The notes below the pieces were generated by a model. It saw only the letters and a program-made list of their open reading frames with translations, was not told where the DNA came from and searched no databases. Shown here piece after piece: positions 1-64,000 of a stretch of 64,000 bases of DNA; positions within the stretch are counted from its first letter, which is position 1, and every line of letters starts with the position of its first letter. The translations under genes and the position numbers were made by a program. The stretch is from assembly GCA_023205875.1 (NCBI GenBank), contig CP060760.1, positions 558,001 through 622,000 of the forward strand, given 5' to 3'. The DNA comes from Chloropicon primus (lineage: Eukaryota > Chlorophyta > Chloropicophyceae > Chloropicales > Chloropicaceae).

Positions 1-93
1 ATACGTCTCCGCGATGCATTTCAAGTGATAGACGCTCTCTTGAATGCGATGGTTCCGCACGGCATCGAGCGCCAGCTCGACCACCTGTTCCAT
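1..93 (-). CDS. 5' end of an unidentified gene, cut by the window edge
   Basis: An ATG on the minus strand at 93 opens a reading frame that runs off the left edge. Thirty-one residues are visible, beginning MEQVVELALDAVRNHRIQES. The stretch looks amphipathic and helical and carries no recognisable motif, so no family is assigned. The start is supported by the gene-oriented promoter motif about 110-140 bp upstream. The gene is divergent to the MLF-family gene at 580. Confidence 0.55.
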   Translation of the reverse strand, partial: MEQVVELALDAVRNHRIQESVYHLKCIAETY

Positions 94-199
94 CGTATCC
101 TCTCCCTCCCTCTCTACGGTGCTCCTGCTTCGCTTCGGTTCCCTCTTCTCCCTCGACGATTTCGCTCGACTAGGGCGCCAACTCACGCAAATTAAGAGC

Positions 200-232
200 G
201 TAAGGGGTCGTTCGAAAGGTAAGAGAAAGCAA
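200..232 (-). promoter_or_regulatory. CTTTCGA promoter module, weak copy
   Basis: On the minus strand this reads TTTCTCTTACCTTTCGAACG and continues into a CCCCTTACGC tail. It matches the recurring module (GTCTC, spacer, CTTTCGA, CCTCGCTTGA-like tail) and points toward the gene ending at 1. Confidence 0.4.
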
Positions 233-486
233 CTTCACGACGTCACGACCCCGTTACCATTCCTACGCCACTTCTTCGACACCTTCCGCCTCCTCCACGA
301 CGGGTGTCGGGGCGATCGATGGATCGACGACTGCTGCCAGCAGCCACCGTCTCCTCCAAAACTGCATCTCATCCCACGGACAAGTTCTGTCTTGGATTAC
401 TGCACCCAGGGTGAGACTTGCTGGAACTTTTTGACGGTGAGGGAGACGAGTGGGTGAGAAGGAGCGAGAATCAGGGGGAACCACTG

Positions 487-522
487 CGTCTGTATCTTTC
501 GATCGTGTCCTCTCTCGAGCGA
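487..522 (+). promoter_or_regulatory. CTTTCGA promoter module of the MLF-family gene
   Basis: GCGTCTGTATCTTTCGATCG followed by a CTCTCTCGAGCG tail, about 60-90 bp before the ATG at 580 and in the direction of that gene. It closely resembles the copy at 52638. Confidence 0.6.
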
Positions 523-579
523 TTTGATGACCTGGTGAGGATCTTAGCCTTTGATTAACTTTGACACTACAGCAGGGAG

Positions 580-1401: not shown

Positions 1402-1423
1402 CTCTGCTGGTTACGGTTTTTGC

Positions 1424-1448
1424 TTTTTTTTTTTTTTTTTTTTTTTTT
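1424..1448 (+). repeat. 25-nt poly-T run between convergent genes
   Basis: An uninterrupted run of about 25 T lies in the 78-bp spacer between the MLF stop (1401) and the TFIIB stop (1480). Read on the minus strand it is an A-tract just past the TFIIB stop. Confidence 0.9.
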
Positions 1449-1479
1449 ACATGTTGTTGTAGTACAGAAAAGAAGAACT

Positions 1480-2563: not shown

Positions 2564-2860
2564 CTGTCTCCAGGAAGCGCGCGCCTCCTGTGGTTTGTCC
2601 CTGACGTGGATGCCCAGGGGAAGACACCACACCTCTTCAACAAACTTTTGTCCAACACCCAGAGCGCCAAACGCGTCAAGCGACCTACCAAACGCAAGCC
2701 CGTGAGACGACCTTTCGCTCAGGTACCCTCCCCTCCTCCTCTCCTCGTCTCCCTCGCCGCCACCGTCCTCGACAAGGTGGCCCCCCGTCGAATACTTTTT
2801 CCTTTCCCTCGCGTCCTTCCCAGCTTCGTTTCCTCGACCACTCCGTGCACCAAACGCGCC

Positions 2861-2898
2861 GAGTAAACGATCAATGGAAAGCCCGGGAGACGTAGTTT
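2861..2898 (-). promoter_or_regulatory. CTTTCGA-type promoter module of TFIIB
   Basis: Minus strand: CTACGTCTCCCGGGCTTTCC, then ATTGATCGTTTACTCGG. It lies about 300-335 bp before the TFIIB ATG and is oriented with that gene. Confidence 0.6.
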
Positions 2899-3100
2899 CG
2901 CTCCGTTCACCTCGTTTCCTATTCCCGCCCTCGACCTTCCTTGCGTTTCCTTCGTTGTGTCCCTCTCTCTCGCGCGCGCAGCGCAGCGCCAAACCCAAAG
3001 CGGTGCTCGAGAGAGAGAGAGAGAGAGAGCAGAGGGGGAGAGGTGTCGGGGGTTGAGACGAGGGCGAGGAGGACGGAGGGGGTGAGGGAGTGAGGCGAAA

Positions 3101-3140
3101 GGTTTCGTCGCGAGTTTTGGATTGGTTACCTCGGTCGACG
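3101..3140 (+). promoter_or_regulatory. Promoter module of the TFIIF-beta gene
   Basis: GTTTCGTCGCGAGTTTTGGA followed by TTGGTTACCTCGGTCGACGG, about 80-120 bp upstream of the ATG at 3221. It is a diverged copy of the recurring module. Together with the copy at 2861 it gives the TFIIB/TFIIF-beta spacer one module per direction. Confidence 0.45.
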
Positions 3141-3220
3141 GGTTTGTTTTGTTTTGGGAGGGAGAGGACGGGGAGAGGACGGGGAGGGAAAGGCAGGAGA
3201 GGTGGGGTTGAGGTTGAAGG

Positions 3221-4045: not shown

Positions 4046-4221
4046 CACGCCTCGCTGTGTGCACAGAGAGAGAGAGAGAGAGAGAGAGAGGGGAGAGGGA
4101 CTTTGAGGGACTTTGAGGAAGCGAAAGGTGAAGGAAAGACGCCTAAAATATATATGTAGTGAAGTGGAAACACGCGCTCCCACTTGCTTGGTACTCGCAG
4201 GGTCGTCCTTACTGGTAACGA

Positions 4222-5723: not shown

Positions 5724-5754
5724 GGTGGTTTGTGATTTTTGGAGAGGAAAAAAA

Positions 5755-6803: not shown

Positions 6804-6815
6804 GAGTTATTTAAG

Positions 6816-15655: not shown

Positions 15656-15724
15656 GCTTCTCTGCTTCACCCCTCGCCCTCTTCACAAACACTTCCCACA
15701 ACCAATACCGTCGTCAAAACCTTC

Positions 15725-15764
15725 GACCGAACGATCAAACGAAAAACCGCGAGACGCACTTTCG
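15725..15764 (-). promoter_or_regulatory. Promoter module, proximal copy for RRP9
   Basis: Minus strand: GCGTCTCGCGGTTTTTCGTT followed by TGATCGTTCGGTCG, about 70-110 bp before the RRP9 ATG. Confidence 0.6.
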
Positions 15765-15906
15765 CTGCTTCAACCTTTCTCCGCCGCTTCGGTTCCACCT
15801 CGTACGCCGTTCCCACAGAAAGCAACAACCCACTCGAGCCCTGCAGCTGCCCTGCTGTGAATGGATCTTCAGCACGCCTCTTCCAAGCCAATCCTGGCGC
15901 CAAAAT

Positions 15907-15950
15907 GTTCAAGTGAAGGATCAAACCAAAGACCGTGAGACGTACTTTCG
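15907..15950 (-). promoter_or_regulatory. Promoter module, distal copy for RRP9
   Basis: Minus strand: TACGTCTCACGGTCTTTGGT, then TTGATCCTTCACTTGAAC and an E2F-like TTTTGGCGCC. The orientation matches RRP9. It is one of two tandem copies in this promoter. Confidence 0.6.
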
Positions 15951-16194
15951 TTTCGTGATGCTACCTTTCCTTCTTTCCGAGTCGCGCGCCCTCTGTTCCT
16001 ATCGAAAGCAACCCAACCCCGGACCTCCGCGCAACGCTCTGATCGATCGACTGGACGGCGGCTCAACCCCTTTAGGGGAAAATCCAAAATCGACGTCCGC
16101 GGACGAGGGAGGGAGTGGCTCGACTCGACACGAACGAGGACGCCTAGGACGGCAGGGGGCGCAACGAGGGCGAAGGGATTGACCTTGGGATAGA

Positions 16195-16240
16195 ACACCC
16201 CGCGATCTTTCGTTTGATCCCTCGCTTGAACGGTTTGGCG
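16195..16240 (+). promoter_or_regulatory. Promoter module of NSE1
   Basis: ACCCCGCGATCTTTCGTTTG followed by ATCCCTCGCTTGAACGG and TTTGGCGG, about 125-165 bp before the NSE1 ATG. The tail is nearly identical to that of the opposite-facing RRP9 distal copy. Confidence 0.65.
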
Positions 16241-16362
16241 GCTCATCGAGTAAGATCGAAGGGGGTTGGAGCGAGGCGAGGAGGCGAAGGAGATTATTGT
16301 TTTGTGGAGTTTGATCCCTGGTTTGGGATCCTTTGTGTGAGGGCCAAGGAGAGGGGGTCAGG

Positions 16363-18110: not shown

Positions 18111-18130
18111 CTCAGCAAACCACGAACTGT

Positions 18131-18165
18131 ATTCGAACGAACAGTCGAAAGCCCGTGAGACGACG
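18131..18165 (-). promoter_or_regulatory. Promoter module of the 17367-18110 gene
   Basis: Minus strand: GTCGTCTCACGGGCTTTCGA followed by CTGTTCGTTCGAAT, only about 20-55 bp before the ATG. At this distance the module must overlap the transcription start region. Confidence 0.65.
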
Positions 18166-18439
18166 CTTCGTCCAGCAACACCCTCTCCCCCTCCAACTCC
18201 CTTCTCCGCCCTCCACTTTGCCCGGAGTAGACGCCTCTCTCTCTCTCTCTCTCTCTCTGAAGCCCCTCGTCGTCCGTCGAAGAGAACACGAAGCATGACG
18301 GCTCTGGAGTGAGGAGGGAGATTGCTTTGCGGAGAGCAAGCAGGTCGTAAGGAGACTGTGTATAAAAATGTAGATACAAGGAGATTCTGTGGTCTGTGGT
18401 CTGTGCCCTTGCCTCTTCTCATCATCGTTGACAGTCAAA

Positions 18440-20042: not shown

Positions 20043-20160
20043 TTTCAACGACGAGGACGTTTGCGGTGCGGGAGGGGAGGGACTCAAGGCGAAACCTCGT
20101 CGCGAGAGCTTTCCATCGGTACCTCGCGCGATCGTTTTGACCCACGGGAAGGTTTGGGCT
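20043..20160 (+). repeat. Promoter module in TOP6B, part of a dispersed ~115-bp repeat
   Basis: It contains CGCGAGAGCTTTCCATCGGT, ACCTCGCGCGATCGTTTTGA and CCCACGGGAAGGTTTG, preceded by TTCAACGACGAGGACGTTTG. The whole block recurs almost unchanged on the minus strand at 49572-49690, and partly at 49384-49510, upstream of an unrelated gene. It ends 43 bp before the TOP6B ATG. Confidence 0.85.
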
Positions 20161-22412: not shown

Positions 22413-23207
22413 TCACAAGGATCTGCTCGCCCTCTCTTCTCGGTACTCTCCGTTTGTGGACCACAAGTGGTAGTCGTTCTTCAGTTCTACCATGAAGGAC
22501 TTGAGCAGCGCGTTGAGCGTCCTCCGAAGCACCCCGTTGCAGGACTTCTCCAAGACCGCCGTGGGCAAGAGATTGAACGGCGGGACGACCTCGCACCAGA
22601 CATCCAACTCCGTCGCAGCCTCAAGAACCGGACCCGCTTCGAGATTCCTGCCCTCCTTGAGAGACGTCTTCACCTTGATCCTCAGTCTTTCGTTGATTTT
22701 CATCTTTTCCACGAAGGAGGAGCCCTTGACCAGGCACTCTTCGCACTCGATGTTCACCACGGCGGGATTGTCCTCGACGTTGACCGACATGGTCACCGCG
22801 GGAGCCACCCAGACGTTGAAGAAACTCATTTGGGGCAGCTCGAACAGGAACGTGTTCTCCGACACCTTGGTGATCCTCTCCGGGTCCGAGATGAAGTACT
22901 GCTCGATCGGAAGCTTGAGGTAGGAGTCGACCTCGACTCCCTCGCCCACGGCTCCGTCCACTGGCACCTCGCACTCCGACACGGCGGTCAAGTGTGCCAC
23001 CTTCACTTTCCTGTCTCGTCGCTCATCGACCAAGGCAGCAGCGGTTCCCAGCTCCTCCCCCCTCGCTTTCTCCGACGAGCGCGCCCCCAGCGGCTTCGGC
23101 GCCCTCCTCTTCCTCATCGACGCCCCCGATCCCACCACATCCCGCCGCGCACTACTCGTCGAGCAGCATGAGGGGCCCAGCCTCCCGTTCATCATCACCG
23201 TCATCAT
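22413..23207 (-). CDS. DUF1997 (SRPBCC-like) plastid protein, first copy
   Basis: A single exon of 264 aa. The N-terminal 65 residues are Arg/Ser/Ala rich and fit a chloroplast transit peptide. The body has the DUF1997 pattern found in cyanobacteria and plants: VDSYLKLPIEQYFI, an internal FELPQMSFFNVWVAP strand pair, a DVWCEVVPPFNLLP segment, and a final NALLKSFMVELKNDYHLW helix. It is probably a START-like lipid- or pigment-binding fold in the plastid; no ligand is known. A second family member lies at 48587. Confidence 0.75.
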   Translation of the reverse strand: MMTVMMNGRLGPSCCSTSSARRDVVGSGASMRKRRAPKPLGARSSEKARGEELGTAAALVDERRDRKVKVAHLTAVSECEVPVDGAVGEGVEVDSYLKLPIEQYFISDPERITKVSENTFLFELPQMSFFNVWVAPAVTMSVNVEDNPAVVNIECEECLVKGSSFVEKMKINERLRIKVKTSLKEGRNLEAGPVLEAATELDVWCEVVPPFNLLPTAVLEKSCNGVLRRTLNALLKSFMVELKNDYHLWSTNGEYREERASRSL

Positions 23208-23440
23208 CTTCCCTGCAAGTGCTCGATCCCTTCTCCTGGCGCTGTGTCTCCGTCACTCGCGAAAGCACCAGAGTCCCGAGCAAAAGAAACACCAACGAGA
23301 AGATCCTCCTCCTGCCAGTCTCCTCCTCGCCCTCTTCCTCGCCCTCCTCCTCCTCCTCGTCCCAACTCCCTCCCTTCCTTCCTTCCCCTGGTGGATCCGG
23401 CAATCCTTCTCCTCTCCAGTTGGAGCACCAAGGCCAACCC

Positions 23441-23485
23441 CCTCAAGCGAGGTATCGTGCGAAAGCCCGTGAGACGTACTATCGA
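23441..23485 (-). promoter_or_regulatory. Promoter module of the first DUF1997 gene
   Basis: Minus strand: TACGTCTCACGGGCTTTCGC, then ACGATACCTCGCTTGAGGGG. It is about 235-280 bp upstream of the ATG at 23207 and oriented with the gene. Confidence 0.65.
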
Positions 23486-26516: not shown

Positions 26517-27026
26517 CGGATAAGACCAAGACCAAAACCAAAACGCAGGAGGGAGCCGAGCCGTTGTCTGCAAACGAAACCGACGCGACCGAGCGTTACG
26601 ACTGAAAGTTCACTTCCTCTACCCAATAATCACGACGTCCTCCTCTGTCTCTGTCTCTTGTCTCGATGCAATGCAATGGGGATGGCAATCGTGGCGTTGG
26701 CAATGGAGTAGTGGCCTTCAGTTGCAGTGGAAACGTAATAGAATGCCAAGCACAACAAGCAAGGCAGAGGATGAAATCGAGAGGGTTCTCTCCCAACGAA
26801 CGACCTGACTGGCCGTAACGTAACGTGCGCTCCAATGAAGCGAAGCGACAGACAGACAGGAGAACAACCCAGTGACCTCCTGGCGTCACGCGGGTTTTGT
26901 GTTTTGTGGTCAGCAGCAGATCCTGCTGGAGGGGAACGAAGGAGATCTGGAGGAAGGAGGGCAAGGAAGGACGAGGTCGAGCGCCAAGCGGGGGGAGGAG
27001 GGAAGCGTGGATTGTCCTCAATCGAA

Positions 27027-27070
27027 AGTACGCCTCGAGATCTTTCGCCTGATACCTCACTTGGACGGTG
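27027..27070 (+). promoter_or_regulatory. Promoter module of the fibrillin gene
   Basis: GTACGCCTCGAGATCTTTCG followed by CCTGATACCTCACTTGGACGG, ending 35 bp before the first ATG. Confidence 0.65.
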
Positions 27071-27102
27071 GTCCTCGATGGTGTGGTTTGTTGTTTGAGA
27101 AT

Positions 27103-28753: not shown

Positions 28754-28822
28754 CCTCTCAAGTCCTCGCCAGAACGTCGTTTCCTTCGAGCGACGGCTTT
28801 TTCGAAAGAGCGAGAGAAGACG
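28754..28822 (-). promoter_or_regulatory. Promoter module variant, copy A (NFRKB-like gene)
   Basis: Minus strand: CGTCTTCTCTCGCTCTTTCG, then AAAAAGCCGTCGCTCGAAGG and ACGACGTTCTGGCGAGGACTT. It starts 27 bp upstream of the ATG at 28727 and is repeated 175 bp further out. Confidence 0.6.
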
Positions 28823-28928
28823 ATCCTTTCTCCCCTCTCTCCCTCTCCCTCTCCCTCTCCCTCCACAAACGCCCTCGCCCTCTCTCTGTTGTCCGCTGCC
28901 TCGCCCTCCTCCCTGAGCTGCTCTTCCG

Positions 28929-28997
28929 CCTCTCAAGTCCTCGCCAGAACGTCGTTCCCTTCGATCGACGGCTCTTTCGAAAGAGCAAGAGAAGACG
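28929..28997 (-). promoter_or_regulatory. Promoter module variant, copy B
   Basis: A near-identical 69-bp duplicate of copy A at 28754, with only a few mismatches and the same orientation. It lies in the divergent spacer toward the MoaC gene. Confidence 0.6.
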
Positions 28998-29122
28998 CTT
29001 CCGATTGTTCGCTCCTCCTCTTCCCTCTCCTCCTCCACCGCGCTCTCCTGGCCGCCTTCTCTCTCTCTCTCTCTCCTCTGCTGCTCTTGCGCTCTCGGTT
29101 GTGTTCTGGGGGGAGCGAGGCG

Positions 29123-30537: not shown

Positions 30538-31596
30538 TCAGTGGGTCATCTTCTCGCACTCCTCCCTGATGGAGCTGAAGAGGACGGTCGACAGGTACCT
30601 CTCTCCGAAGGATGGGATGATGCAAGTAATGAGCTTTCCCGCGTTCTCGGGCCTCTTGGCGAGATCCAGGGCCGCCTTCACGGCCGCCCCGCTTGAGATC
30701 CCCACCAGCAGGCCCTCCTCCAAGGCGAGCCTCTTGGCCATCTCCACCGCTTCGTCGCTGTGGACCGTGATCACCTCGTCGATCAAGTCCCTGTCGAGGA
30801 TGCTGGGAACGAATCCCGCGCCGATTCCCTGGATCTTGTGGGGGCCGGGCGATCCCCCGGACAGGACTGGGGACTCCTCGGGCTCCACCGCGACGACCTT
30901 GACGTCCTTCTTCTTGCTCTTGAGGAAGCCCCCGGCTCCGGTGATCGTTCCTCCCGTTCCCACGCCACTGACGAAGACGTCCACTTTGCCAGCCGTGTCC
31001 TCCCAGATCTCAGGGCCCGTGGTCTCGAAGTGGATCTTGGGGTTGTCCGGGTTCTCGAACTGCTGCAGAATGAAGGAGTCCGGAGTCTTAGCAGCGATCT
31101 CGTTCGCGGCCTCCACGACACCTTTGATTCCCTTGCTTGGGTCGGTCAGAACCAAGTCAGCACCGAAAGCCTTGAGAACGATGCGCCGCTCCATGGACAT
31201 CGAGGACGGCATGGTCAGCACGAGCTTGTAGCCCTTCGCAGCGGCCATCATCGCCAGGCCTGTATGCGTAAACGAAAACACGAAACACGCGATTGTATTC
31301 AGTAACTCGGGCTCGAGCATCCCTCCAACCATCGGCAGCTTACCTACGCCAGTGTTTCCGGAAGTCGGTTCGACGAGCGTGGTCTTCCCTGGCGTGATCT
31401 TCCCCTGCTTCTCCGCCTGGGTCACCATGTTGTGTGCGATCCTGTCCTTGACCGAGCTACAGGGGTTCATGCTCTCCAGCTTCACCGCCACCGTGCCACC
31501 GCACCCCTCGCTCACCTTGTTCAAGAAAACCATGGGAGTCTTCCCGATGAGTTCGGTCACGTTCGCCGCGATCTTCACCTCATTGCCGCTGTCCAT
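30538..31596 (-). CDS. CYSK: Cysteine synthase (O-acetylserine thiol-lyase)
   Basis: Exon 1 is 31344-31596 and exon 2 is 30538-31259, with an 84-bp intron in frame. The product is 324 aa, the usual OAS-TL length. It begins [21 protein letters not shown]. The PLP lysine lies in [10 protein letters not shown]; the substrate loop is [16 protein letters not shown]; the phosphate loop is [13 protein letters not shown]; and [12 protein letters not shown] completes the site. There is no transit peptide, so it is probably the cytosolic isoform. It makes cysteine from O-acetylserine and sulfide. The promoter contains a tandemly duplicated module. Confidence 0.95.
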
Positions 31597-31597
31597 T

Positions 31598-31680
31598 CTC
31601 TCTTTCGAAAGCCAAAGAAATGAATCTTCCGCCTGTGACACTCTCCTTCGTATCCCTCCCCCTCTCCTCCCGTTACCGCC
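31598..31680 (-). promoter_or_regulatory. CysK promoter duplicate, proximal copy
   Basis: On the minus strand it holds TTTCTTTGGCTTTCGAAAGA immediately before the ATG. An ~80-bp block here recurs at 31786-31864. Confidence 0.6.
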
Positions 31681-31785
31681 CAACTCGATCGATATGATCT
31701 CCAGCTCCAGCACAAGAGCAAGCAAGAGCAGAGAGAATTCTTCCGCTTAAATCCTCACCACTGGGTCGTTTCTTTCGAGCGACGG

Positions 31786-31864
31786 CTCTTTCGAATGCCA
31801 AAGAGATGACGCTTCCTCCTGTGCCACTCTCCTTCGTATCCCTACCCCTCTCCTCCCGCTACCT
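31786..31864 (-). promoter_or_regulatory. CysK promoter duplicate, distal copy
   Basis: Minus strand: TCATCTCTTTGGCATTCGAA, flanked by the same polypyrimidine-derived block as the proximal copy, and followed on the gene side (31740-31785) by GAGCCGTCGCTCGAAAG, the variant tail also seen at 28754 and 46686. Confidence 0.6.
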
Positions 31865-33105: not shown

Positions 33106-33522
33106 GAACGCCAAGCTTCCGTCCGCACAAAACAAAACAACTTTGCTTGAGCAACCTTTCCTTCTGTCCACTCCCTTGCCTACAAAGTATGGAAAGGAAA
33201 ACCAAACCTTTGTCCAACTCTTTTCACCAAACGAAACCGAAACCGAAACGGTTGACCAGAAAGAGGAAAAGATCCTCTACGCATCCAGCACGACAGATAC
33301 CCTACACCACCACCCGTGGCTTGCACTCCCTTCCCTCCCCTTGGACCCTGCACTCTCCAAAGGCCCCGCCTCTTCTCCCTCCACAGACAGAAGAGAAGAA
33401 AGAAAGAGAGGAAGCAGGTCTCACGGCGCTCACGTGTCCGGGCTTCGAGGAGGGACAAGTGTTCGCGGTTGTTTTGAGGAGGAAGGCGACGGGGAAAGGG
33501 GTCGAGAGGGTCGCAGAAGGAA

Positions 33523-33570
33523 GCTACGTGTCGCGGGCTTTCGATCGGTACCGCACTTGACCACGTTTCG
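33523..33570 (+). promoter_or_regulatory. Promoter module of the KEA gene
   Basis: CTACGTGTCGCGGGCTTTCG, then ATCGGTACCGCACTTGACCA. It is about 105-150 bp before the KEA ATG and one of the best matches to the consensus. Confidence 0.7.
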
Positions 33571-33673
33571 TCCTCGGCGTGGAGTCTGGCGTTGGATAAA
33601 GGAGGGTGACGTTGTCGGTGGAGGTCGAGGAGAGGAGTGGGGTTGAGGGACGGCGGCGGCAGGGAGAGGGGAC

Positions 33674-46465: not shown

Positions 46466-46685
46466 CCAAGAACAATCTCTTCCTGTCATCGACCTTCGCT
46501 TTCCTTCCTGGTTCCTCCTCTCCTCCTCTCTTTGTTTCTTTCTCTTCATTTTCTCCCTTCCGCTGAACCATCATAACGGCCCGAGGCCACGAGGGCGAAC
46601 ACAAGAGGGAGGAGAACGAGAGAAACGAAGAGGACGGGAGCGCGCGGAGGAGGAAAAGAGAGAGAAGGAGGACCGAACAGGCGAA

Positions 46686-46720
46686 ACGTTCGTCTCTTGC
46701 TCTTTCGAAAGAGCCGTCGC
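46686..46720 (+). promoter_or_regulatory. Promoter module variant of the CotH gene
   Basis: ACGTTCGTCTCTTGCTCTTT followed by CGAAAGAGCCGTCGC, ending a few bases before the ATG at 46725. The tail matches the variants at 28754, 28929 and 31740. Confidence 0.55.
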
Positions 46721-46724
46721 AACC

Positions 46725-48568
46725 ATGGTGACGAGGTGGGGACTTTGCTGGGGGTTGGTCTGCCTGTGGCTCGGAGGGGTCACTGATACTGTTGTTGCGA
46801 CCAAGTACCACGCTGGCAGGGGCGAGGAAGAATTGGACACGATCTTCAGCCACGGGGCGCTCAACGAGTACCACCTTCAGGTCGGAAAGAGCCAATGGGA
46901 ATGGCTCAACACTCACGAGCTCCTCGAGGAGTACGTCGAAGGAAACCTTTCGTTCAAGAACTTCAACACCCCGGGAGGCGTTGGATCAGAAGAGTTGTTT
47001 GAGAAGGTGGGCATTCGCTACAAAGGGTCGAAGGGCAGTTTAGAGTATTGCTTTTCCAATGCCACGTCGGGTAACGAAGGATCGTCCCAGGTAATAATTC
47101 CTTCCCTCTCTCGTCCGAAAACTCTTTCTCTCTCTCTTGACTGACACCGCCGTTCGGCAACTCGTGCGATAGTGGAACAAGCGCTTGTGCAAAAAGCTGT
47201 CGATCAAGCTGAGCTTTGACAAGTACGACGACAGGGGCAGGTTTTATGATCAGAAGAAGCTCAATCTTCATGCGTAAGTGGGATCTCTTGATCGCTCGCA
47301 TCCCAGCCCTCGCCTGACTTGCCTTCCTTCCGTCCGTCGCTTCGGCGGTTGCTTCCAGCATGCAGAATGACCCTTCCTTGATGCGGGAGTGCCTAGCTTA
47401 CCACCTGTACCGGTCGATGGGACTCAAAGTATCTCGCTGTGCGCACGCCAAAGTTTTCGTCAATGGCAGGTATGAAGGCGTCTACCTCGCCGTGGAGAAT
47501 GTCGACTCGCGGTTCTTGGAACACCACTTTGGCGAGAAGGAGGGAGTTTTGTTCAAGGAGAAATGGCCAGGCATCGGCGAGGACGCGAATCACGCGGACT
47601 ACTTCTTGGAGGGAGTGAAGAACAGGAAAAGCTCGACAACCAAGAGCGATATCGAGCCAATGCTCAAGTTCTCTCAGAAACTTTGGGACGCGAAGGACTC
47701 GGACGAGGTGGCTCACGCATTACACAAGTACTGGAATCTGGAATCGATCACTCGGGTGCTGGCGGTTGCCTCGGTTATCGACGACTGGGACTCGTTCTTC
47801 ACCTTCTTCCCCAGCGACCCGAATCGTCACCAAGATCCAAGCAACGGACAGAGGCGCTTCAATCACAACTTTTACGTCTACCAAGATGGAGGAGGCAAAC
47901 TTAACCTCATTCACTGGGACACGGATCTGACTTTCAGTGAGTACGGATCGGTGCTGGAATTATTCTTCGGTTTGCCGGCTTGGAACGTGCCATTATGCGA
48001 GCCTCACAACAGGAGGTCGACGACATGCACGCCTTGCAAGGAGTACTTGCCGTACAACGTGTCGCAGGGGTCGCCGACGAACGGTGGAATATTGCCAGGG
48101 GCGGGGTGCGATAAGATCCTCAATTTCATCGCGACGGACCCGGCGACCAGGGAGGGTTACTTGAAGGACTCCTGGTACTTCCTTCAACGCGTCTTCATCC
48201 CAAGCGAGCTGGAAAAGGTGGTTCGGGCTTGGCAAGCTCGCGGGCTGGAGGAAGCACACCGGTGCGACCCGAACTATCCGGCGGGCAAGGGCATATTTCC
48301 GGACCCCAGCCAGAACGGAACGGCGGTGAATTGGAAGGAGGAGGTCCAAAGCCTTCTGGGCACGATAAGGCAAGAGTACAAATTGGCCTTGGAGAGGACC
48401 AACCCAGTGTACCAGCCGCACGTTCCTGACCGGAAGAAGATTGGGAAGGTCTTCAAGTGCGTCACGGACTGCTCCAAGTTCATGTCAAGACACGACATCA
48501 AGTCGCTCTACACTTGCTACAGCATCTGCCTCCACGAGGTTTCACCATTCGCCAGCTCGCAGGTGTAA
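46725..48568 (+). CDS. CotH-family secreted kinase-like protein
   Basis: Exons 46725-47090, 47173-47273 and 47359-48568 with 82- and 85-bp introns give 558 aa. The N-terminus (WGLCWGLVCLWLGGVTDTVVA) is a signal peptide. The CotH fold shows GIRYKGSKGSLEYCF, the metal/ATP region LMRECLAYHLYRSMGL, VNGRYEGVYLAVENVDSRFL, and the catalytic-like NLIHWDTDLTFSEYG. Bacterial CotH phosphorylates spore-coat protein; Mucorales CotH proteins are surface invasins. Here the protein should be secreted or ER-lumenal. The C-terminal third is Cys containing (CVTDCSKF, CYSICLH) and not part of the core family. Confidence 0.88.
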
Positions 48569-48586: not shown

Positions 48587-49369
48587 TCACATCTTGAGCA
48601 CTTTGCTCTCTGCCTTCTCCTTCGATCTCGCCCACTTTGCAAAGTCCTGCGGCAGGCTTCGCTTCAGACTCTCCTCAAGACGGCTGATGACCCCGCCCAA
48701 GATGGCCTCGACCGTCTCCCTGAGCAGCGGGAAGGTGCTGTACGGGAAAGGAACCTCCACGCCCAGGCTCATCTTCACCGTCCCGCGTAGTTTGTTCACC
48801 TTGGATGCCGGAGTTCTCTTGCTTGAACGCAGCCTGCCGTCCACCTTGAGCTCTGCGGGGACGCGTATCTCGTCCGGAAGGTCGCTCAAATCAATGTCAC
48901 TCACTTGGATGCCCAGCTGGCCTCCCTCGTTCCAAACCCTCAGAACTGCCCTCGGCGCGAACTTGACGCCGAAAAAATCTTGCTCCAGCAGCGTGACTTC
49001 CCACTTGCCCTCCTCCAGCAACCTCCTGCGAGATTCGTCGGGAAACGTCGCGTAAACTATCCTGTCCACCTGCTGCAGGTAAGCGTCCACCGTCCTTCCG
49101 CTGTTCAGCTCTACCATGGTGAACTCCGTGTCCCTCGCGGATGTGTACAAAGCCTCGCAGAGCGTCGACGGCCTTCGGTGCGACCGCCAGTCAGTAAGCT
49201 CGCCTTCCCTTAGCACAATCCATATTCGTTCCACTCACCTGTCATCTCCAGCGCGGTGGCGAAGCGTTCGCCCCGTATTCGCCCCAATGGCTTTGCCTTG
49301 GCGCGGTCTCGACCTCCCCCTGTGGCCCAGACGCCCTCCTCCCCCGAGGCCCCTCCCCAGGAGCCTCAT
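48587..49369 (-). CDS. DUF1997 (SRPBCC-like) plastid protein, second copy
   Basis: Exon 1 is 49239-49369 and exon 2 is 48587-49172, joined over a 66-bp GTGAGT...CGAAG intron, the shortest in the window, with a TACTGAC branch-like site. The product is 238 aa. Exon 1 encodes an Arg/Gly-rich transit peptide (MRLLGRGLGGGGRLGHRGRS). The body has VDRIVYATFPDESRRRLLEE, VWNEGGQLGIQVSDIDL, a VEVPFPYSTFPLLRETVEAI segment and the closing LKRSLPQDFAKWA helix, a better match to cyanobacterial DUF1997 than the copy at 22413. Its stop is 18 bp from the CotH stop. Confidence 0.75.
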
Positions 49370-49383: not shown

Positions 49384-49510
49384 CTTCCCCAAAACCTTCC
49401 CGTGGGCCAAAACGATCGCGCGAGGCACCGATGGAAAGCTCTCGCGACGAGGTTTTGATCTGAGCAAACTCAAACCTCCCGCACCGCCAACGTCCTTGTC
49501 GTTGAACCCC
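49384..49510 (-). repeat. Dispersed promoter repeat, proximal copy
   Basis: Minus strand: CTCGCGCGATCGTTTTGGCC and CGCGAGAGCTTTCCATCGGT, with the ACGTTGGCGGTGCGGGAGG upstream block. It is a diverged member of the three-copy repeat shared with 20043 and 49572. Confidence 0.8.
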
Positions 49511-49571: not shown

Positions 49572-49690
49572 TCAAACCTTCCCGTGGGTCAAAACGATCG
49601 CGCGAGGTACCGATGGAAAGCTCTCGTGACGAAGTTTTGCCTGGTGTCCCTCCCCTCCCGCACCGCAAACGTCCTCGTCGTTGAAACTCG
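49572..49690 (-). repeat. Dispersed promoter repeat, distal copy
   Basis: Almost identical, in reverse complement, to 20043-20160 upstream of TOP6B over about 115 bp, including the GAGGACGTTTGCGGTGCGGG block and CCCACGGGAAGGTTTG end. Confidence 0.85.
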
Positions 49691-52321: not shown

Positions 52322-52396
52322 GGTTTCCCTCTCCCTCTCGCCGCCTTTGGCTGCTTCAGGACAAGGCGAGACACCAAGCGAGTGAACCCCGTCCGA

Positions 52397-52430
52397 TGAC
52401 CCACCAACCAAAAGCTCTTGAGACGTGCTC
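52397..52430 (-). promoter_or_regulatory. Promoter module of COQ8
   Basis: Minus strand: GCACGTCTCAAGAGCTTTTG, then GTTGGTGGGTCATCGG, about 75-110 bp before the ATG. Confidence 0.5.
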
Positions 52431-52637
52431 TCGCGACGTGAGCCTCTCCACTCTCCCCTCGTCCTCCCTCGCGGCCGATCCGGCCGATCCCCTCCCTCAA
52501 CCTGACGCGCTCCTCGCTCCAGCGCTTCTCAGCCAGGAGTTCATTATCTTCTAGGAGCAGCACCAAGGCCAAGGTGAGTGAGCGGACGAGGACGAGGACG
52601 AGTGGTGCAGGGGGAGGACGGGTCACCGACGGACGCA

Positions 52638-52680
52638 TCGTCTCCTCTGTATCTTTCGATGGACACCTCGCTTGCTCGAT
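52638..52680 (+). promoter_or_regulatory. Promoter module of the 52769 gene
   Basis: CGTCTCCTCTGTATCTTTCG followed by ATGGACACCTCGCTTGCTCG, about 90-130 bp before the ATG. Nearly the same as the copy at 487. Confidence 0.6.
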
Positions 52681-52768
52681 GAGACGCACAAGAGAGAGTG
52701 TGGCGTTCTGAAAGTGCATCTGAATAATCTTCTAGGAGCAACAACTGGAGGGCGCACAAAGGTGGAGG

Positions 52769-53344
52769 ATGAGGGGGCAAAACCGGGGCTTGCGCCTTCA
52801 CTCCTTGCCGCAGAGCTCGAGCTGCGAGGCTGCGAGGATGGCGAGGAGGAGAATCTTCCTGTCTCTCGGTGGGCTGGGAGTGTTAGGGAATCTGGCGGGG
52901 AACTGCCGATCGACTTGGGCGAGGGAGGAGGCGAGGGAAGTATCCTGCGACGTCAAAGTCGAGCAGCTTCAGGGAGGTTTGGGACCAGATGATGTTCCGG
53001 CGAGGCTGACGTTCGCACTCACAGAGAAAGGGACGGGGAACCCGATACTGTGGAAGGACCTGTCAAGCTTTTCCTCCACGGGCAGCAAGCCACACGCTCT
53101 CCACGTCCATGTGTACGACGAGGATGACCCAGACATTCCTGGAATTGAGGTGGGCCACGTCCACCCGGAAGACTTCGGCAATCCCTCCGCCTCGAGGGAT
53201 GGCAAGTACGACGTGGAGTTCGAGTTCCCGCACCCCGGAGCCTACACCGTGGAGCTCAGCTACCTCCTCGCGTCGTCCAACAACGGTGCTGCCAAGACGA
53301 TCAGGGTCCCGGTGACGCTGGCGTCAAAGTTCGAGGGCGCCTGA
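52769..53344 (+). CDS. Small secreted/lumenal beta-sandwich-like protein, unknown
   Basis: A single exon of 191 aa, family not recognised. A second ATG at residue 24 begins a better signal-like segment (MARRRIFLSLGGLGVLGNLA), so the mature protein may be secreted or enter an organelle lumen. The rest alternates strands in an Ig-like pattern: ARLTFALTEKGTG, HALHVHVYDED, a His-Val-His stretch at GIEVGHVHPEDFG, VEFEFPHPGAYTVELSYLL and a terminal IRVPVTLAS. The HVHVYD and GHVHPED histidines could bind metal, as in YtkA/CopC-like folds; that is conjecture. Confidence 0.6.
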   Translation: MRGQNRGLRLHSLPQSSSCEAARMARRRIFLSLGGLGVLGNLAGNCRSTWAREEAREVSCDVKVEQLQGGLGPDDVPARLTFALTEKGTGNPILWKDLSSFSSTGSKPHALHVHVYDEDDPDIPGIEVGHVHPEDFGNPSASRDGKYDVEFEFPHPGAYTVELSYLLASSNNGAAKTIRVPVTLASKFEGA

Positions 53345-54922: not shown

Positions 54923-55020
54923 CCTATCTATCTCTCGGCCTGCCTCCAGCGAGCGAGCGACGCCACTTGACGTGGTATGTGCCCTCCCTCGGAAAGCGAA
55001 GGCTCCGGAGCGTCAAGACG

Positions 55021-55063
55021 AGTCAAGTTCGGTACCAATCGAAAGACCGCGAGACGTACTTTC
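55021..55063 (-). promoter_or_regulatory. Promoter module of ERG4
   Basis: Minus strand: GTACGTCTCGCGGTCTTTCG, then ATTGGTACCGAACTTGACTC. It is about 100-140 bp before the ATG at 54922 and very close to the consensus. Confidence 0.7.
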
Positions 55064-55168
55064 GCACAACCACCCTCTCCCTCCCCTTGTGCCCCCTCCA
55101 CTCGACGACCGGAGCCGCCAACCAACTCGAGCGTTACCCACTCGAGCGTTAATGTTAAGCCCTTCGAG

Positions 55169-55268: not shown

Positions 55269-55429
55269 CGACGGGATTTGTACAGGAAAATAATTATTCC
55301 GTCGAATAATAAAGTTTTGAGGCGCGGAGACCACTGGTGTGAGGTGGACTCGGTGCGGCACGTTGTCGCGAGGAGTTTGGGAACGAGGGAGGTCGAGGGT
55401 CGTGTCGAGGTCAGGAGGACGCGAAATAT

Positions 55430-55466
55430 TGTCTCACGGGCTTTCGATAGACCCCTCGGTTGTTGG
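55430..55466 (+). promoter_or_regulatory. Promoter module of the TDBD-PHD-GNAT gene
   Basis: ATTGTCTCACGGGCTTTCGA, then TAGACCCCTCGGTTG. It is about 300-335 bp before the ATG. Confidence 0.6.
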
Positions 55467-55763
55467 ATTCGGTGCGTGGGAAGTTGGGGAAAAGTCGCGG
55501 AGTGGGGTGGACGCTCTAGGAGGAGGAGACCTCGAGGAGGAGAGGGGAGGGAGAGGCCCCGAGGGCTCGAGGGGGAGAGGAAGGCCCCGGCGTCGAGGAG
55601 GGAGGGACGGGAGGCCTGACTCGAAGTCCTTTGACGACCGCGTCGGAGGCGTCGGGCGACGCGAACGGGAGGGGGAAGCAGCCCCGTGAGGTTGGTCTGA
55701 GCTGGCACAGCTCTCGGACGTCTAGTACAGAGAGGGCGCCAGAAGGACTGGTGGAAGAGTCGA

Positions 55764-59076: not shown

Positions 59077-60098
59077 CACCTCCAATGATCACCACGGCCT
59101 CAAACCAGTCGGTCAGACACGGACTCCCTCAAGCTTGAGGAGCAAAGTACTTGCTGTGCTGCTGCTGCTGTTGTGGCTTCGACTGGACTAGAACATAACT
59201 CGTTGAGGCAAAGCAAAACTTCGTGCGTTTGGTGGAAACAAGTGCTGGAACACAAGTGGCACCAAGTCAAAGCTTCCCTTGCCCTCGGCTCGGACAATTT
59301 CTCATGCAAAGGTCCGACCTTTGCGAAGCCTTCTGAATGGGGATGGGAGGGGAGGCTCCTTCGCTTCGCTCTTCCGTCCTCGCTTTGCGCGAAAGTCAAC
59401 CGTTGATCTTTGTCAAACGTCATCGTCGAACGGGGGAGGAAGGGATAAAAACCCCGTTCGAGGAAGGACGTTTGAGATTGAGTCTTTTGGTCGACGGAAC
59501 CCAACGATGGTCTCCGCTCTACACGGCGTTGTACCCCACGAAACGGAGCAAGAGGGGTACTCATCGAAGAAGGACAAGGTCTAGTTCTTATTTCTATCGC
59601 TCATGTTTGAGTTGAGTGCGTGCTTTGTCGTCAACCTTGTGTCAAAGTTGCCCAAGTCCTGCAAGTTTGGAGAATTCTGTAACTTCATGGAGTAAACCGT
59701 TCACGATTTGTTTCAGGTAAAGTAACGTCGTTTTCGGAGATCCCTCCACGAGAGGAAAGGGAGTCCAAGGGGAGTCCAAGGGGCGTCGTACAGGACGCGT
59801 GGTGACAGGTTGAGGACCTTGGAGCGGAGGCCAACGCTTTAGCGGAGGCATTGGGGACGGGTACCGAGGAGGGGATCATTGGAAAGGAGTTTCCGCGAAA
59901 GCGCGTCTCGAGGGCTTTCGATTGGTACCGAACTTGACCGGTTTCGTTGTCGGGTGGAGGAGACAGGCCCGAGGAGAAGAAGACTACGAGGACCGAAGCC
60001 GTTGTCCAGGATGGCAACGTGAGCTGCAGAAGCAGAGCAGCAGGAAGCGACAGAACGGACTTGACAAGGAAGAGAGTGAGTGAGCGAAGAACTTCGAG
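59077..60098. other. 1-kb spacer with a promoter module for the surface-protein gene
   Basis: This is divergent spacer. A strong module lies at 59901-59940 on the plus strand: GCGCGTCTCGAGGGCTTTCG, then ATTGGTACCGAACTTGACCG. A (CTG)n run is at 59160. Open frames here are short and carry no domain. The long distance from the module to the ATG at 60099 (about 160 bp) is typical of the window. Confidence 0.55.
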
Positions 60099-63000
60099 AT
60101 GAGGTGGACCAAGACGCGTCCAAAGATCGGACTGGTACACGCTGCAGCGTTGGTGCTGGTGGTGCTGGTGTCAGATGTCCTTGCGCAAAAGGACTGCACG
60201 GGAACGAACAGAGGATGGCTGACGAACGGCGCGGACAAGGGGGTGCACCCGACGGGTTTGTTCGGGCCCTTGGGGCTTCACGGCGAGCACATCATGGCAA
60301 GCGAGGTGAGCAGCACGACGGTGCAGATCCGCGTTTCGGAAGTGATGTACAACTCGACGACGGAGGGGTGGAAGTACAACATAGACGGCGGCATGACGCA
60401 GACCGGGAGCAGCAGCTACAACCCCTTCAAGGTCGGAGGCAACGGAGACCTTAAGCCGGTCTCTTACTACCCGGAGAGGCTTTACAAGGTCAATATCATC
60501 TGCACCAAGGTGTGTGCTTTCCTTGCGAGTTTCGAGAGGGGGACGAGGGTCGACTCCGTGAACGAGTCAGACGTGGACAAGAGAGCTGCGCTGCAGGTCG
60601 GCGTGAACACTGGCCACGTCGGCGTCACTGCCACGGGGGTCAAGGCCTACAGGGGCATCTCCAACTACACGTCCACGGTGAACGACATGCCGCTGGCCAC
60701 GACGTACGAGTTGTACTGGGAGGCCCCGAGCTTCAGCGAGATTAACTACGAGGGCCTCGACCTTCGGGTGAGTGTGGTGGAGGACAACACGGCGACCTGC
60801 GCGGGAAAGTTCTACCAGTACACCCTGCCTTCGCTGCTGACTTGTGGAGACGGAATCAAGGACGACCTCGAGGAGTGCGACGACAGGAACACTGTGAACG
60901 GCGACGGCTGCAGCAGCGACTGCAAGATAGAAGTGGGGTACACCTGCGAGACGAAGAAGGACGTTTTGCACGGCACAGGAGAGAGGGACACCTTCAACAG
61001 GGAGTACGTGAGGTCCTACTGCACCAAGGCGGAGATCTACGTGGACGTCCTCGGCGGCAATGGGGTCTACAACAAGACCACGCCGTTGGTGGTGACAGAG
61101 GGAGGCGAGGCGACCTTCACCGTGCTGCTCTCGACCACGGTGAAGCCGGGGAAGGAGGTGTTCGTTTCCCTCCTGGCGACGACTGAGGATGGCCAATCTG
61201 CGGCCGGACAGATCCAGATGTCCAAAAGCTCCTTGAGGTTCGACTCCACGACCGCGCAAGTCGCTCAACCCATCATTGTGACGGCGATCGGGAACAACTT
61301 CAGGGACGGGAACAGAAACATCAAGATCAAGTACACGGTGTCCTCGACGGATGAGAACTACGCCTTGGCCTCGCACCCGGACACGACTGTTGCCATCACG
61401 GACGACGACGTCGCGAGCTTGGCTTACACCACACCGGAGAACTTCATCGTCATGGAGGGCGGGGTCGGCGTGGATTTTGAGGTGAAGCTCACGGCTCAGC
61501 CCTACGGCACCGTTGTGGTCACCTTCAGCGGATTGCCAGACAGCCAGCTGATGCTGACCCCGAACCAACTGGCTTTTGGCGCGAGCGATTGGAACGTCCA
61601 GAAGAAGGTGTCCGTGGTCGCCATAGACAACAAAGTTGTCGAGGGAAAGACGGCCGTGAAGATCAGGCCAACGATAACGGCGCCAGGCGATGTTGCCTAC
61701 GAGGCCCTCAACAGCCAGGCCGCGGCTGGGGATTGGGACATACCAGTCCAGGTCGAGGACAACGACACTCCTGGCTTAGTGGTCACGCCCACCGCCATAT
61801 CCATCGTCGAAGGAGAAGCTCAGCACTACTACACCGTGGCCCTTCGCTCTCAGATGCAGTCGGGTGCAGAGGTGTCCGTAACCCCCACCGTCAACAACTG
61901 CCTGGCCCCTTGTGCATTCAGGGCCAGGGGCGGAGAGAACAGGACGCTGGAGACTCTCACGTTCTCGGAGCACAACTGGGACGTGGAGCAGAAGGTCTAC
62001 GTGACGTACGACGAGAATGACATGGTCGAGTGGCGGAGCTCAGACAAGCCCAAGCTCGCTGGAACAAAAGTCTTCACCATTGAGCATTCCACAGTGAGTT
62101 CCGACCCCTTGTACAACTCCTTGGCCACCCACTCGGCCATGTGGCCGTACAAGGTAACCGTCAACGTGACTGACAATGACATTCCTGGCGTGTCGCACCC
62201 AGAGGTCGTGACGCTGACGGAGGGCGGGACGGGGCAAGATGGACAAGGGCTCGCGGAGATCGATTTTCCGATGAAGCTGCTGTCACGGCCCACGGATAAG
62301 GTGGAAGTTCGGCTGAGCATCCAGGATCCGAGAGTGAGGATCTACGAGAAGTTTATGGTGGCCTCACCGGCGTACAATGTTTCGGCCCAGGGGGACGCAG
62401 CAACGATCACCTGGCAGCCCGAGGAGTGGGGCACGACTAGAATCGTTCGGCTCCGCGCAATGTTCGACGACAGCGCCCAGAAGCCAGACGTTCTGGTTGG
62501 CATGCACATCGTCTCAAGCAGTAACGACGTGCTGTACGACAAGGTGGTGGAGAAGGACATCGTGATCACGATCAAGGACAACGACGTGGCCAAGGTGATG
62601 CTCACCACCCCAAGCGGCGGGAGCGTGGCCAACCTGGAAGTGACGGAGGGCGGATCGATGACCGAGTTCGAGATGTACCTCAATGCCGTGCCAGACAATG
62701 ACGTGACGTTGAAGCTCACCCCGAGCGCTCAGCTCGAAGTGAGCCCGAGCACAGTGGTGTTCACCCCCCAGAACTGGAGCAACAAGGTCTCCGTCCAAGT
62801 GAAAGCGGTCGACGACGCGCTTGTGGAAAGCGTGAAGCACCAGGGGCTGGTCAGGTTTGAGTTGACTGGCGGAACGCCAAGTTACACGAACGTCAAGGTG
62901 CCCGACTTGAGCGTGACAGTGAATGAGAACGACTTCGTTACTGTCACAAGGTCGATTGGTACGTTCGGAGGCATCATCAGCCCGACCGAGCCCTCCGGTG

Positions 63001-63779
63001 CGGTGATCCTGAACGTCCCCGGCGGTGTGCTGAACTCGACCTTGAACATCAAGCTGGAGGAGAGCGAGAAGCCTTTGGGGGAGACTGTCCTTGGGTCCAA
63101 GGAGACCATTTCGGGCTCCCAGAACACGTACGAGAGGGTCAGCGGGACGTACTCGTTCCAACCCCATGGCCAGACCTTCAAGGCGCCTGTTTACATCACC
63201 ATCCAGTACAGCGAGCAGCTCTGGGTGAACGAGTTCACGAAGAGCCAGGTGCAAAACCGCCTCGTGTTCCTGAAGAAGGACTCCGACACCGATCCCGAGT
63301 GGAAGGTCGTTTCGGGGGGAAAGTTCTCGAACGGGGTCGCAACCCTCGCTACCACGAGCTTCAGCTTGTACAAGGTTGTCATCGAGAAGGACCCCGCCAA
63401 GCCTCCAGAGAGCATCGCCGCCGCGGAGGCACGGATGGCCGGGGGCTTGGCCGGGCAGGACGTCGCAAAGTGCATCAACGGCTTTGAGCTGGCTTCCACG
63501 GGCTCTGGTTCCACCTGCGGGTTCAAGTTCAACGACGAGATCACGACGCAGAACAACATCGAGGTGACCAAGGAAAAGGATGTGGACGAGTACAGGATCT
63601 CGGTACTCGTCATCATTCTGCTTTCGGCCGTGGGCCTGGAGGCTTTCATTATCCTGGGGCTCATCATATCGCTCAACGCGAAGAAAGCGGAGGGGGGAAG
63701 CACCGTGGGAAGCAACGCCATCGTCCCGGTGGACAACCCTGCCCACAACAACGCTCTCGTGAGCGCCAAAATCCCTTGA
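60099..63779 (+). CDS. Large type I surface protein with Calx-beta-like repeats
   Basis: A single exon of 1,226 aa. The signal peptide (HAAALVLVVLVSDVLAQ, about 14-30) is followed by an N-terminal domain. A DUF4215-type cysteine module follows (CGDGIKDDLEECDDRNTVNG, DGCSSDC, GYTC, about 247-287). Next come about five Calx-beta-like repeats of 110-130 residues, each with a VTEGG/VVEGE start and an 'x-I-x-D-N-D' end (VAITDDDVAS, QVEDNDTPGL, NVTDNDIPGV, TIKDNDVAKV, TVNENDFV). A juxtamembrane domain and one transmembrane helix (ISVLVIILLSAVGLEAFIIL, about 1170-1195) lead to a short basic tail. It is probably a Ca2+-binding adhesin or cell-coat protein; that role is inferred. Confidence 0.85.
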   Translation: MRWTKTRPKIGLVHAAALVLVVLVSDVLAQKDCTGTNRGWLTNGADKGVHPTGLFGPLGLHGEHIMASEVSSTTVQIRVSEVMYNSTTEGWKYNIDGGMTQTGSSSYNPFKVGGNGDLKPVSYYPERLYKVNIICTKVCAFLASFERGTRVDSVNESDVDKRAALQVGVNTGHVGVTATGVKAYRGISNYTSTVNDMPLATTYELYWEAPSFSEINYEGLDLRVSVVEDNTATCAGKFYQYTLPSLLTCGDGIKDDLEECDDRNTVNGDGCSSDCKIEVGYTCETKKDVLHGTGERDTFNREYVRSYCTKAEIYVDVLGGNGVYNKTTPLVVTEGGEATFTVLLSTTVKPGKEVFVSLLATTEDGQSAAGQIQMSKSSLRFDSTTAQVAQPIIVTAIGNNFRDGNRNIKIKYTVSSTDENYALASHPDTTVAITDDDVASLAYTTPENFIVMEGGVGVDFEVKLTAQPYGTVVVTFSGLPDSQLMLTPNQLAFGASDWNVQKKVSVVAIDNKVVEGKTAVKIRPTITAPGDVAYEALNSQAAAGDWDIPVQVEDNDTPGLVVTPTAISIVEGEAQHYYTVALRSQMQSGAEVSVTPTVNNCLAPCAFRARGGENRTLETLTFSEHNWDVEQKVYVTYDENDMVEWRSSDKPKLAGTKVFTIEHSTVSSDPLYNSLATHSAMWPYKVTVNVTDNDIPGVSHPEVVTLTEGGTGQDGQGLAEIDFPMKLLSRPTDKVEVRLSIQDPRVRIYEKFMVASPAYNVSAQGDAATITWQPEEWGTTRIVRLRAMFDDSAQKPDVLVGMHIVSSSNDVLYDKVVEKDIVITIKDNDVAKVMLTTPSGGSVANLEVTEGGSMTEFEMYLNAVPDNDVTLKLTPSAQLEVSPSTVVFTPQNWSNKVSVQVKAVDDALVESVKHQGLVRFELTGGTPSYTNVKVPDLSVTVNENDFVTVTRSIGTFGGIISPTEPSGAVILNVPGGVLNSTLNIKLEESEKPLGETVLGSKETISGSQNTYERVSGTYSFQPHGQTFKAPVYITIQYSEQLWVNEFTKSQVQNRLVFLKKDSDTDPEWKVVSGGKFSNGVATLATTSFSLYKVVIEKDPAKPPESIAAAEARMAGGLAGQDVAKCINGFELASTGSGSTCGFKFNDEITTQNNIEVTKEKDVDEYRISVLVIILLSAVGLEAFIILGLIISLNAKKAEGGSTVGSNAIVPVDNPAHNNALVSAKIP

Positions 63780-64000
63780 CTGGATTGTGTCTAATACTTT
63801 TTCCATCCTTTTGTACAACACTAGTATTTTTTCTAACGCTCAAGCTCTCTCTCTCCTTGTTGTCCTTCTGGAATCCTAAAACCTAAAAACCTAAAAACCT
63901 AAAACCTAACAAAAAGAACTTTTCAAGGAAGGGGAGGCGGGGAGGCGGGACCCAAAAAAACGCGCGTCTTGGCGGTCTTGGTATTTCAAAGGTGGGACCT
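63780..64000. other. Downstream spacer with telomere-like repeats
   Basis: From 63875 to 63910 the sequence is a run of CCTAAAA/CCTAAAAA units ending CCTAAC, i.e. a degenerate array of TTTTAGG-type repeats. The rest is poly-A/T rich spacer with an E2F-like TTGGCGG near 63968. Confidence 0.6.

Follow-up and report, generated by a model that had tools for sequence, protein, structure and literature searches.

In this study, we describe a directional DNA element of about 59 bp in the green alga Chloropicon primus, found in 24 copies in a stretch of 64,000 nucleotides (assembly GCA_023205875.1, contig CP060760.1, positions 558,001 to 622,000 of the forward strand; hereafter the window). On balance, we read it as a DNA-level transcriptional control element that acts from downstream of the start site in a direction- and position-dependent manner, a reading drawn from sequence analysis. 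The copies point toward genes, keep a rigid internal spacing and are confined to 5' spacers in the sequence sampled. They are preceded by a stretch poor in ATG and, in a minority of copies, by splice donors that cluster in position. The working genome comprised 17,584,162 bases in 20 contigs, the window being positions 558001-622000 of contig C7.

A scoring matrix was built from eight seed sites (43631, which dropped out afterwards, among them) and refined using the window alone. Applied to 200 kb of unseen sequence from the same chromosome, this window-trained matrix found 25 sites at 22 bits or above, while none were found in each of five dinucleotide shuffles or in the reversed sequence. 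Lowering the threshold to 15 bits gave 32 sites, compared with 0-2 in the shuffles and one in the reversed sequence. Three degenerate patterns searched on both strands of the whole 17.6-Mb genome yielded 106, 146 and 92 matches, and their reversed forms 0, 0 and 1. After refinement on eight additional loci together with the window and the 200 kb, the final matrix gave 68 instances, 24 of them within the window and four (L001, L003, L005 and L007) near-identical. Counts from this matrix were made on sequence also used for training; position and direction were not training inputs.

The 24 copies of the window are separated from the background by a clean gap, with the weakest accepted copy at 18.5 bits. 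The first-pass annotation of this DNA had reported some 25 copies and listed 15 positions, of which 14 hold a copy and one (43624) scores -0.1 bits. The module of about 40 bp that it described is real and extends further than was thought, with informative columns from about -20 to +38 (0 being the C of CTTTCGA). Its layout is roughly CGAAAG, CGTCTC, CTTTCGA, GA..CCTCGCT.GA and TTTGG, and an alignment of 55 copies is free of gaps. Since an ungapped matrix favours ungapped copies, the two halves were scanned separately as well, whereby 44 of 45 half-pairs were found at the consensus spacing, one at +1 and none elsewhere between -15 and +30. Small insertions were seen by eye in a few copies (L002, held-out 83633). 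Two loose sub-classes share the common layout and differ in the middle (GATTGATACC versus GAAAGAGCC). The motif columns are conserved and the flanks hold little information. With up to two mismatches allowed, the 11-base core alone shows no enrichment in the window (23 versus 21.3 expected) and is uninformative by itself, and internal symmetry or repeats within the motif are weak (best correlations 0.36 and 0.27).

Genes were called with our own codon hidden Markov model (HMM), which assigned 69-70% of the sequence as coding; the 2019 genome paper of the species gives 73.8%. Unbiased counts refer to 264 kb of one chromosome (the window plus the 200 kb) and to coding segments of at least 150 bp. 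Among the 56 copies in this sample, 43 are located in divergent spacers (37.0 kb) and 13 in tandem spacers (26.3 kb), with none in coding sequence (184.3 kb), convergent spacers (12.5 kb) or short tandem gaps (3.2 kb). As the first-pass annotation had claimed, the copies point toward the adjacent gene, with 65 of the 68 instances oriented toward the next called gene. The exceptions are held-out 123460, held-out 141856 and window 496, the last of which is followed by an ATG on the correct strand near 580 (by eye), in a gene overlooked by the HMM finder. Equal frequency in 3' regions and random orientation, which the annotation had named as signs against a promoter role, were both checked on the 264 kb and neither occurred.

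Presence of the element varies from gene to gene. The 43 divergent spacers include nine with at least one copy each way, 18 with copies one way only and 16 with none, and eight of the 39 long tandem spacers hold a copy in gene direction. A copy accompanies 44 of 125 gene starts overall (window, 18 of 36; the 200 kb outside it, 26 of 89), and the claim that it lies upstream of most genes did not hold. Scores of upstream regions are bimodal: 43 of 131 reach at least 4 bits and just one more reaches at least 0, compared with one at 0 or above in reversed and none in shuffled controls. The element shows all-or-none presence and marks about a third of gene starts. One third of about 8,600 genes would amount to some 2,900 carriers, a figure that is an extrapolation only; for C. 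primus RCC138, 8,683 genes (0.494 per kb) are reported (PMC12301720). Divergent arrangement is commoner among starts with a copy (n = 42; 35 divergent and seven tandem) than among those without (n = 89; 49 divergent and 40 tandem), and some of the tandem "starts" may be miscalled introns.

In order to place the motif relative to transcription, ATG counts on the sense strand were compared, in bins upstream of the motif, with the mean of five letter permutations. In a first set of 52 copies, single or distal with no further copy just upstream, the 50-bp bins from -300 to -200 held 27 ATGs (17.8 permuted) and 25 (18.2), and ratios were 1.4-1.5 from -400 to -200. Counts fell to 7 versus 23.0 at -100 to -60 and 4 versus 16.6 at -60 to -22. 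The second set consisted of 80 loci elsewhere in the genome (12 from one duplicated family and seven from another), picked by exact patterns and therefore biased inside the motif, not in the flanks tested for ATGs and donors. Here, counts from -150 to -22 were 15 versus 42.0, 9 versus 21.0 and 8 versus 24.8, and further upstream 28 versus 30.2 and 35 versus 29.6. For 105 non-redundant loci, the ATG ratio was 0.62 at -150 to -125 and, over the next four bins of 25 bp (ending at -25), 0.36, 0.22, 0.33 and 0.21. The ratio for CAT, the antisense equivalent, was 0.81 at -150 to -125 and then 0.69, 0.67, 0.43 and 0.40 down to -25. The sense strand is more depleted, clearly so at -125 to -75, and near the motif both strands are low. 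Downstream of the motif, the first ATG follows at a median of about 100 bp.

Splice donors cluster in the same region. Nine GGTRAGT donors were found at -110 to -70 of the 52 copies, compared with 0.53 for permuted words and none in antisense. In the 80 loci, they lie at -84, -82, -82, -81, -81, -79 and -71, two of these seven in the near-identical L084 and L085. According to a donor matrix built from 24 inferred coding introns, 11 of the 105 non-redundant copies have a donor within the 16 bp from -90 to -75, and 11 donors are spread over the other ~200 bp upstream. In some copies, downstream acceptors complete plausible introns (for example window 52574-52813), and in others no downstream acceptor reached 6 bits. 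An apparent confinement of donors to the CTCTTTCGAANGAGCC sub-class (7/40 versus 0/40 at first) was rejected on non-redundant copies (6/43 versus 5/62, Fisher p = 0.35). Composition changes at about -125, C-rich sequence giving way to G-rich sequence, and both flanks of the motif are G-rich, with a peak of AGAGAG near -95 and A6 runs near -170 to -155 in one sub-class. Given the sense ATG depletion and the donors at -90 to -75, transcription of at least those genes should start well upstream. The motif probably lies in the transcribed leader or first intron, at around +100 to +150 after initiation.

A DNA element acting within the transcription unit is favoured by direction, rigidity, all-or-none presence and conservation in leaders of both kinds, predicted-spliced and apparently unspliced. 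We posit that the element sits in the 5' leader or first intron, some 100-150 bp past initiation, where a long-footprint sequence-specific protein or complex would read its ~59 bp as two halves at a fixed distance. The binder would promote or orient initiation just upstream of the element, and the carriers, about a third of genes, would form one all-or-none promoter class. Several observations weigh against this scheme. CAT is also below permutations near the motif, so that part of the nearest ATG deficit is not strand-specific, and the deficit begins gradually (0.77 at -175 to -150). A clear upstream donor is present in just 11 of 105 copies, three of the 39 long tandem spacers hold a copy opposite to gene direction, and gene calls come from our own HMM rather than from an annotation. 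Zinc-finger candidates for the binder are also few, with five zf-C2H2 matches found in the genome, a lower bound.

The copies in the window, and one predicted intron, are as follows:
476..534, + strand: copy, 42.6 bits; gene start near 580 (+), start read by eye
2660..2718, - strand: copy, 53.5 bits; proximal member of a 183-bp pair, TFIIB gene
2843..2901, - strand: copy, 56.4 bits; distal member of the TFIIB pair
3095..3153, + strand: weakest copy, 18.5 bits; precedes the TFIIF-beta gene
15707..15765, - strand: copy, 56.7 bits; proximal member of a 186-bp pair, WD40 gene
15893..15951, - strand: copy, 60.9 bits; distal member of the WD40-gene pair
16187..16245, + strand: copy, 53.1 bits; precedes the Nse1 gene
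18113..18171, - strand: copy, 35.5 bits; precedes an open reading frame (ORF) without Pfam match
20089..20147, + strand: copy, 54.8 bits; precedes the topoisomerase VI B gene
23427..23485, - strand: copy, 51.6 bits; precedes a DUF1997 gene
27022..27080, + strand: copy, 46.8 bits; precedes an ORF without Pfam match
28770..28828, - strand: copy of the second sub-class, 53.3 bits; proximal member of a 175-bp pair
28945..29003, - strand: copy, 61.6 bits; distal mate of 28770..28828
31573..31631, - strand: degenerate proximal copy, 23.8 bits; member of a 186-bp pair; overlaps the ATG of a PALP-domain gene
31759..31817, - strand: copy, 55.7 bits; distal mate of 31573..31631
33518..33576, + strand: copy, 42.1 bits; precedes a Na/H exchanger gene
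46682..46740, + strand: copy, 33.5 bits; upstream of segments, the second with a CotH domain
49400..49458, - strand: copy, 50.8 bits; proximal member of a 182-bp pair, DUF1997 gene
49582..49640, - strand: copy, 53.4 bits; distal mate of 49400..49458
52376..52434, - strand: copy, 27.3 bits; precedes an ABC1-kinase gene
52574..52813, + strand: predicted 5'-leader intron with a 15.0-bit donor at -79 and an 11.5-bit acceptor at +161; sequence-only prediction
52633..52691, + strand: copy, 36.2 bits; within the predicted leader intron 52574..52813
55007..55065, - strand: copy, 37.6 bits; precedes an ERG4/ERG24 gene
55421..55479, + strand: copy, 51.0 bits; precedes a PHD / IDM1-like gene
59895..59953, + strand: copy, 51.7 bits; precedes a 1228-residue frame at 60084

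The carrier genes are functionally mixed (TFIIB, Nse1, topoisomerase VI B, ERG4/24, Na/H exchanger and others). Two DUF1997 genes are present in the window, at 22443-23141 (-) and 48590-49165 (-), each with a copy of the element. The window also holds, at 44011-45920 (+), adjacent segments with HTH_OrfB_IS605 and Cas12f1-like TNB domains, which we take to be a TnpB/Fanzor-type nuclease gene. Fanzor2 within cut-and-paste transposons of C. primus has already been described (PMC10711439). In promoters without the motif (window, L009-L028), three oriented words (TAACGCC, GTAACGCC and GGATAACG) occur in excess, each in 5-6 of 89 promoters compared with 0.4-0.8 expected and 0-2 in reverse. These words are perhaps the mark of another promoter class.

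A more far-reaching version of the proposed control element would be an internal promoter module of RNA polymerase II, in which a dedicated long-footprint factor reads the rigid unit of ~59 bp from within the transcribed leader and licenses initiation about 100-150 bp upstream, dividing the genome into two classes of promoters. Such a logic recalls RNA polymerase III genes, and to our knowledge nothing comparable has been described for protein-coding genes. We regard this version as less likely than not.

The first-pass annotation had proposed a core promoter or start-site element. On such a reading, the motif would be where the pre-initiation complex forms, and transcription would begin from it or just after it. 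The strict direction and fixed internal spacing would suit such a role, as would the ATG at a median of ~100 bp downstream and the joint deficit of CAT and ATG just upstream. TATAWAW is also missing (0 of 105 loci, -150 to +150), yet the motif does not occupy the usual place of TATA. The donors at -90 to -75 and the depletion of sense ATGs, which extends from about -150 up to the motif, suggest instead that transcription comes from further upstream, which makes this explanation unlikely. What stands of the proposal is a directional promoter class, as seen from orientation, 5'-spacer confinement and all-or-none presence; a start-site element replacing TATA is disfavoured by the ATG depletion and the upstream donors. 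A role as the main core promoter is likewise not favoured, and the motif marks a minority class of genes (43/131).

Slightly less probable again is an RNA-level leader element with a role in the splicing, export or translation of the transcript, whether nascent or mature. Its sense direction and presumed place in the leader are consistent with this idea, against which RNAalifold predicts no consensus pairs in a 61-column core of 55 copies and no Rfam matches were found in the window. Moreover, splicing would remove some copies and leave others in the mRNA, yet the sequence is conserved in both.

The spacing of neighbouring copies raises the question of chromatin. Pairs were counted in the window, the 200 kb, L006 and L008, and some of the 19 divergent pairs are combinations with a tandem mate. 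Ten of 12 same-strand pairs are spaced 175-200 bp apart, around 180 bp, the others being 266 and 448 bp; nine of the 19 divergent pairs are spaced 230-283 bp, and converging pairs were absent from these sequences. At least eight further same-strand pairs, 159-186 bp apart, were recognized by eye among the genome-wide pattern matches. An array on C16 (L029 1748-2824) has a 170-bp unit in 6.3 copies with 96% matches and includes six exact pattern matches; the frame downstream of it is, in our reading, presumably RAD51-like. An element that phases chromatin, setting where the first downstream nucleosomes lie and where divergent promoters are nucleosome-free, could account for both spacing groups and for the array. 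It would also fit the A6 runs of one sub-class and the five of ten tandem pairs whose flanks align no better than shuffled sequence and which are nevertheless spaced 178-199 bp apart. The flanks of the other five pairs do align, and duplication of a leader would, through its unit length, yield equal spacing as well. Furthermore, the sequence next to the motif showed no ~10-bp WW periodicity (peaks at 14.25 and 12.25 bp), and a bound 59-bp site leaves less than 147 bp free at a spacing of 183 bp. We consider chromatin phasing improbable.

Leaders have at times been copied between genes, as shared flanks indicate. The 145 oriented loci collapse into 105 clusters, with flank sharing beyond the motif in clusters of 17, 10, 4 and 3 members plus some pairs. 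The two-copy leader of the TFIIB gene (window 2660-2901) and that of an unrelated kinase gene (L006 1302-1542) have 229 bp in common at 86%. The cluster of 17 includes HARE-HTH genes (L001 by Pfam, and places in L003 and L005) together with L002, whose frame differs by eye. This HARE-HTH family is expanded, with 18 places found in the genome and near-identical motif-bearing leaders (L001, L003, L005, L007 and cluster mates). That the element is nothing but a functionless dispersed repeat, spread with leaders by duplication or retroposition, would agree with this copying and is very improbable in view of the contrast between conserved motif columns and uninformative flanks, the 0 of 56 copies in called coding or convergent sequence, and the non-random direction (65/68). 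Viral spread was rejected, with two long patterns having no exact match in viral contigs.

Candidate binders of the proposed control element were also considered. The tandem HTH repeats of the HARE-HTH family would suit a long site. A long zinc-finger binder was rejected, with five zf-C2H2 matches found (a lower bound), three of them adjacent in one frame. An E2F/LIN54 (DREAM) idea, which arose from TTTGGCGC and TTYGAA words, was rejected too. The E2F site is TTTSGCGC, which occurs in three of 105 motifs and not in the flanks. TTYGAA is present in 43 of 105 copies, a count raised by selection, as a pattern containing TTCGAA had been used to pick 40 of the 145 loci.

Elements downstream of the start site are known from several systems. 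The downstream promoter element (DPE) and motif ten element (MTE) of animals are short, directional and fixed in position at about +18 to +33. The element described here shares the direction and the presumed downstream location, and differs in lying, by our estimate, at +100 to +150 and in its length of ~59 bp. In Arabidopsis, TTNGATYTG acts from an intron or an intronless 5' untranslated region (UTR) independently of splicing, and its authors discuss a factor that would activate transcription upstream of the site where it binds (Gallegos and Rose, 2019; PMC6760150). Both would be located 5'-proximally within the transcribed region. TTNGATYTG is described as short and dose-dependent, whereas the C. 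primus element is rigid, mostly single-copy and all-or-none. TTNGATYTG was found in 0 of 105 loci from -150 to +150.

The downstream GATC motif of vascular plants, YVGATCBR, is reported as an 8-bp, dose-dependent site of GATA factors (Voichek et al., 2024; PMC11525189). It is position-dependent, occurs in introns and UTRs beyond the start site and is tied to the transcription of many genes; support was weak in Marchantia, with no clear effect in Physcomitrium (PMC11525189). The main text of that article mentions neither "algae" nor "Chlamydomonas". According to this description, the two are alike in downstream position, as far as it can be estimated for the element, and unlike in size and dose dependence. 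YVGATCBR is present within -20 to +38 in 11 of 105 copies (11 sites; permuted mean 3.5) and at -150 to -20 in 22 of 105 copies (35 sites; permuted mean 5.2). By its estimated position, the element would work like these land-plant downstream elements, yet it is neither TTNGATYTG nor the GATC motif. For Chlamydomonas, intron-mediated enhancement is described as post-transcriptional; the introns lay inside transcribed ORFs, and no shared motif reached statistical significance (PMC7419008). Both cases concern transcribed sequence of a green alga, and they differ in that the reported Chlamydomonas effect is post-transcriptional and without a shared motif. The word "promoter" is absent from the main text of both Chloropicon genome papers, and the element was unreported among the open-access matches listed for Chloropicon with promoter, for CTTTCGA with promoter and for broader queries.

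In plants, downstream sequence is reported to be central to transcription through short, dose-dependent motifs (PMC11525189). If the control element proposed here acts as we posit in this deep chlorophyte lineage, the logic of downstream elements would be older or would have arisen separately. The element would then provide a precise handle for promoter annotation in picoalgae, and how downstream sequence drives initiation would become testable at one well-defined site.

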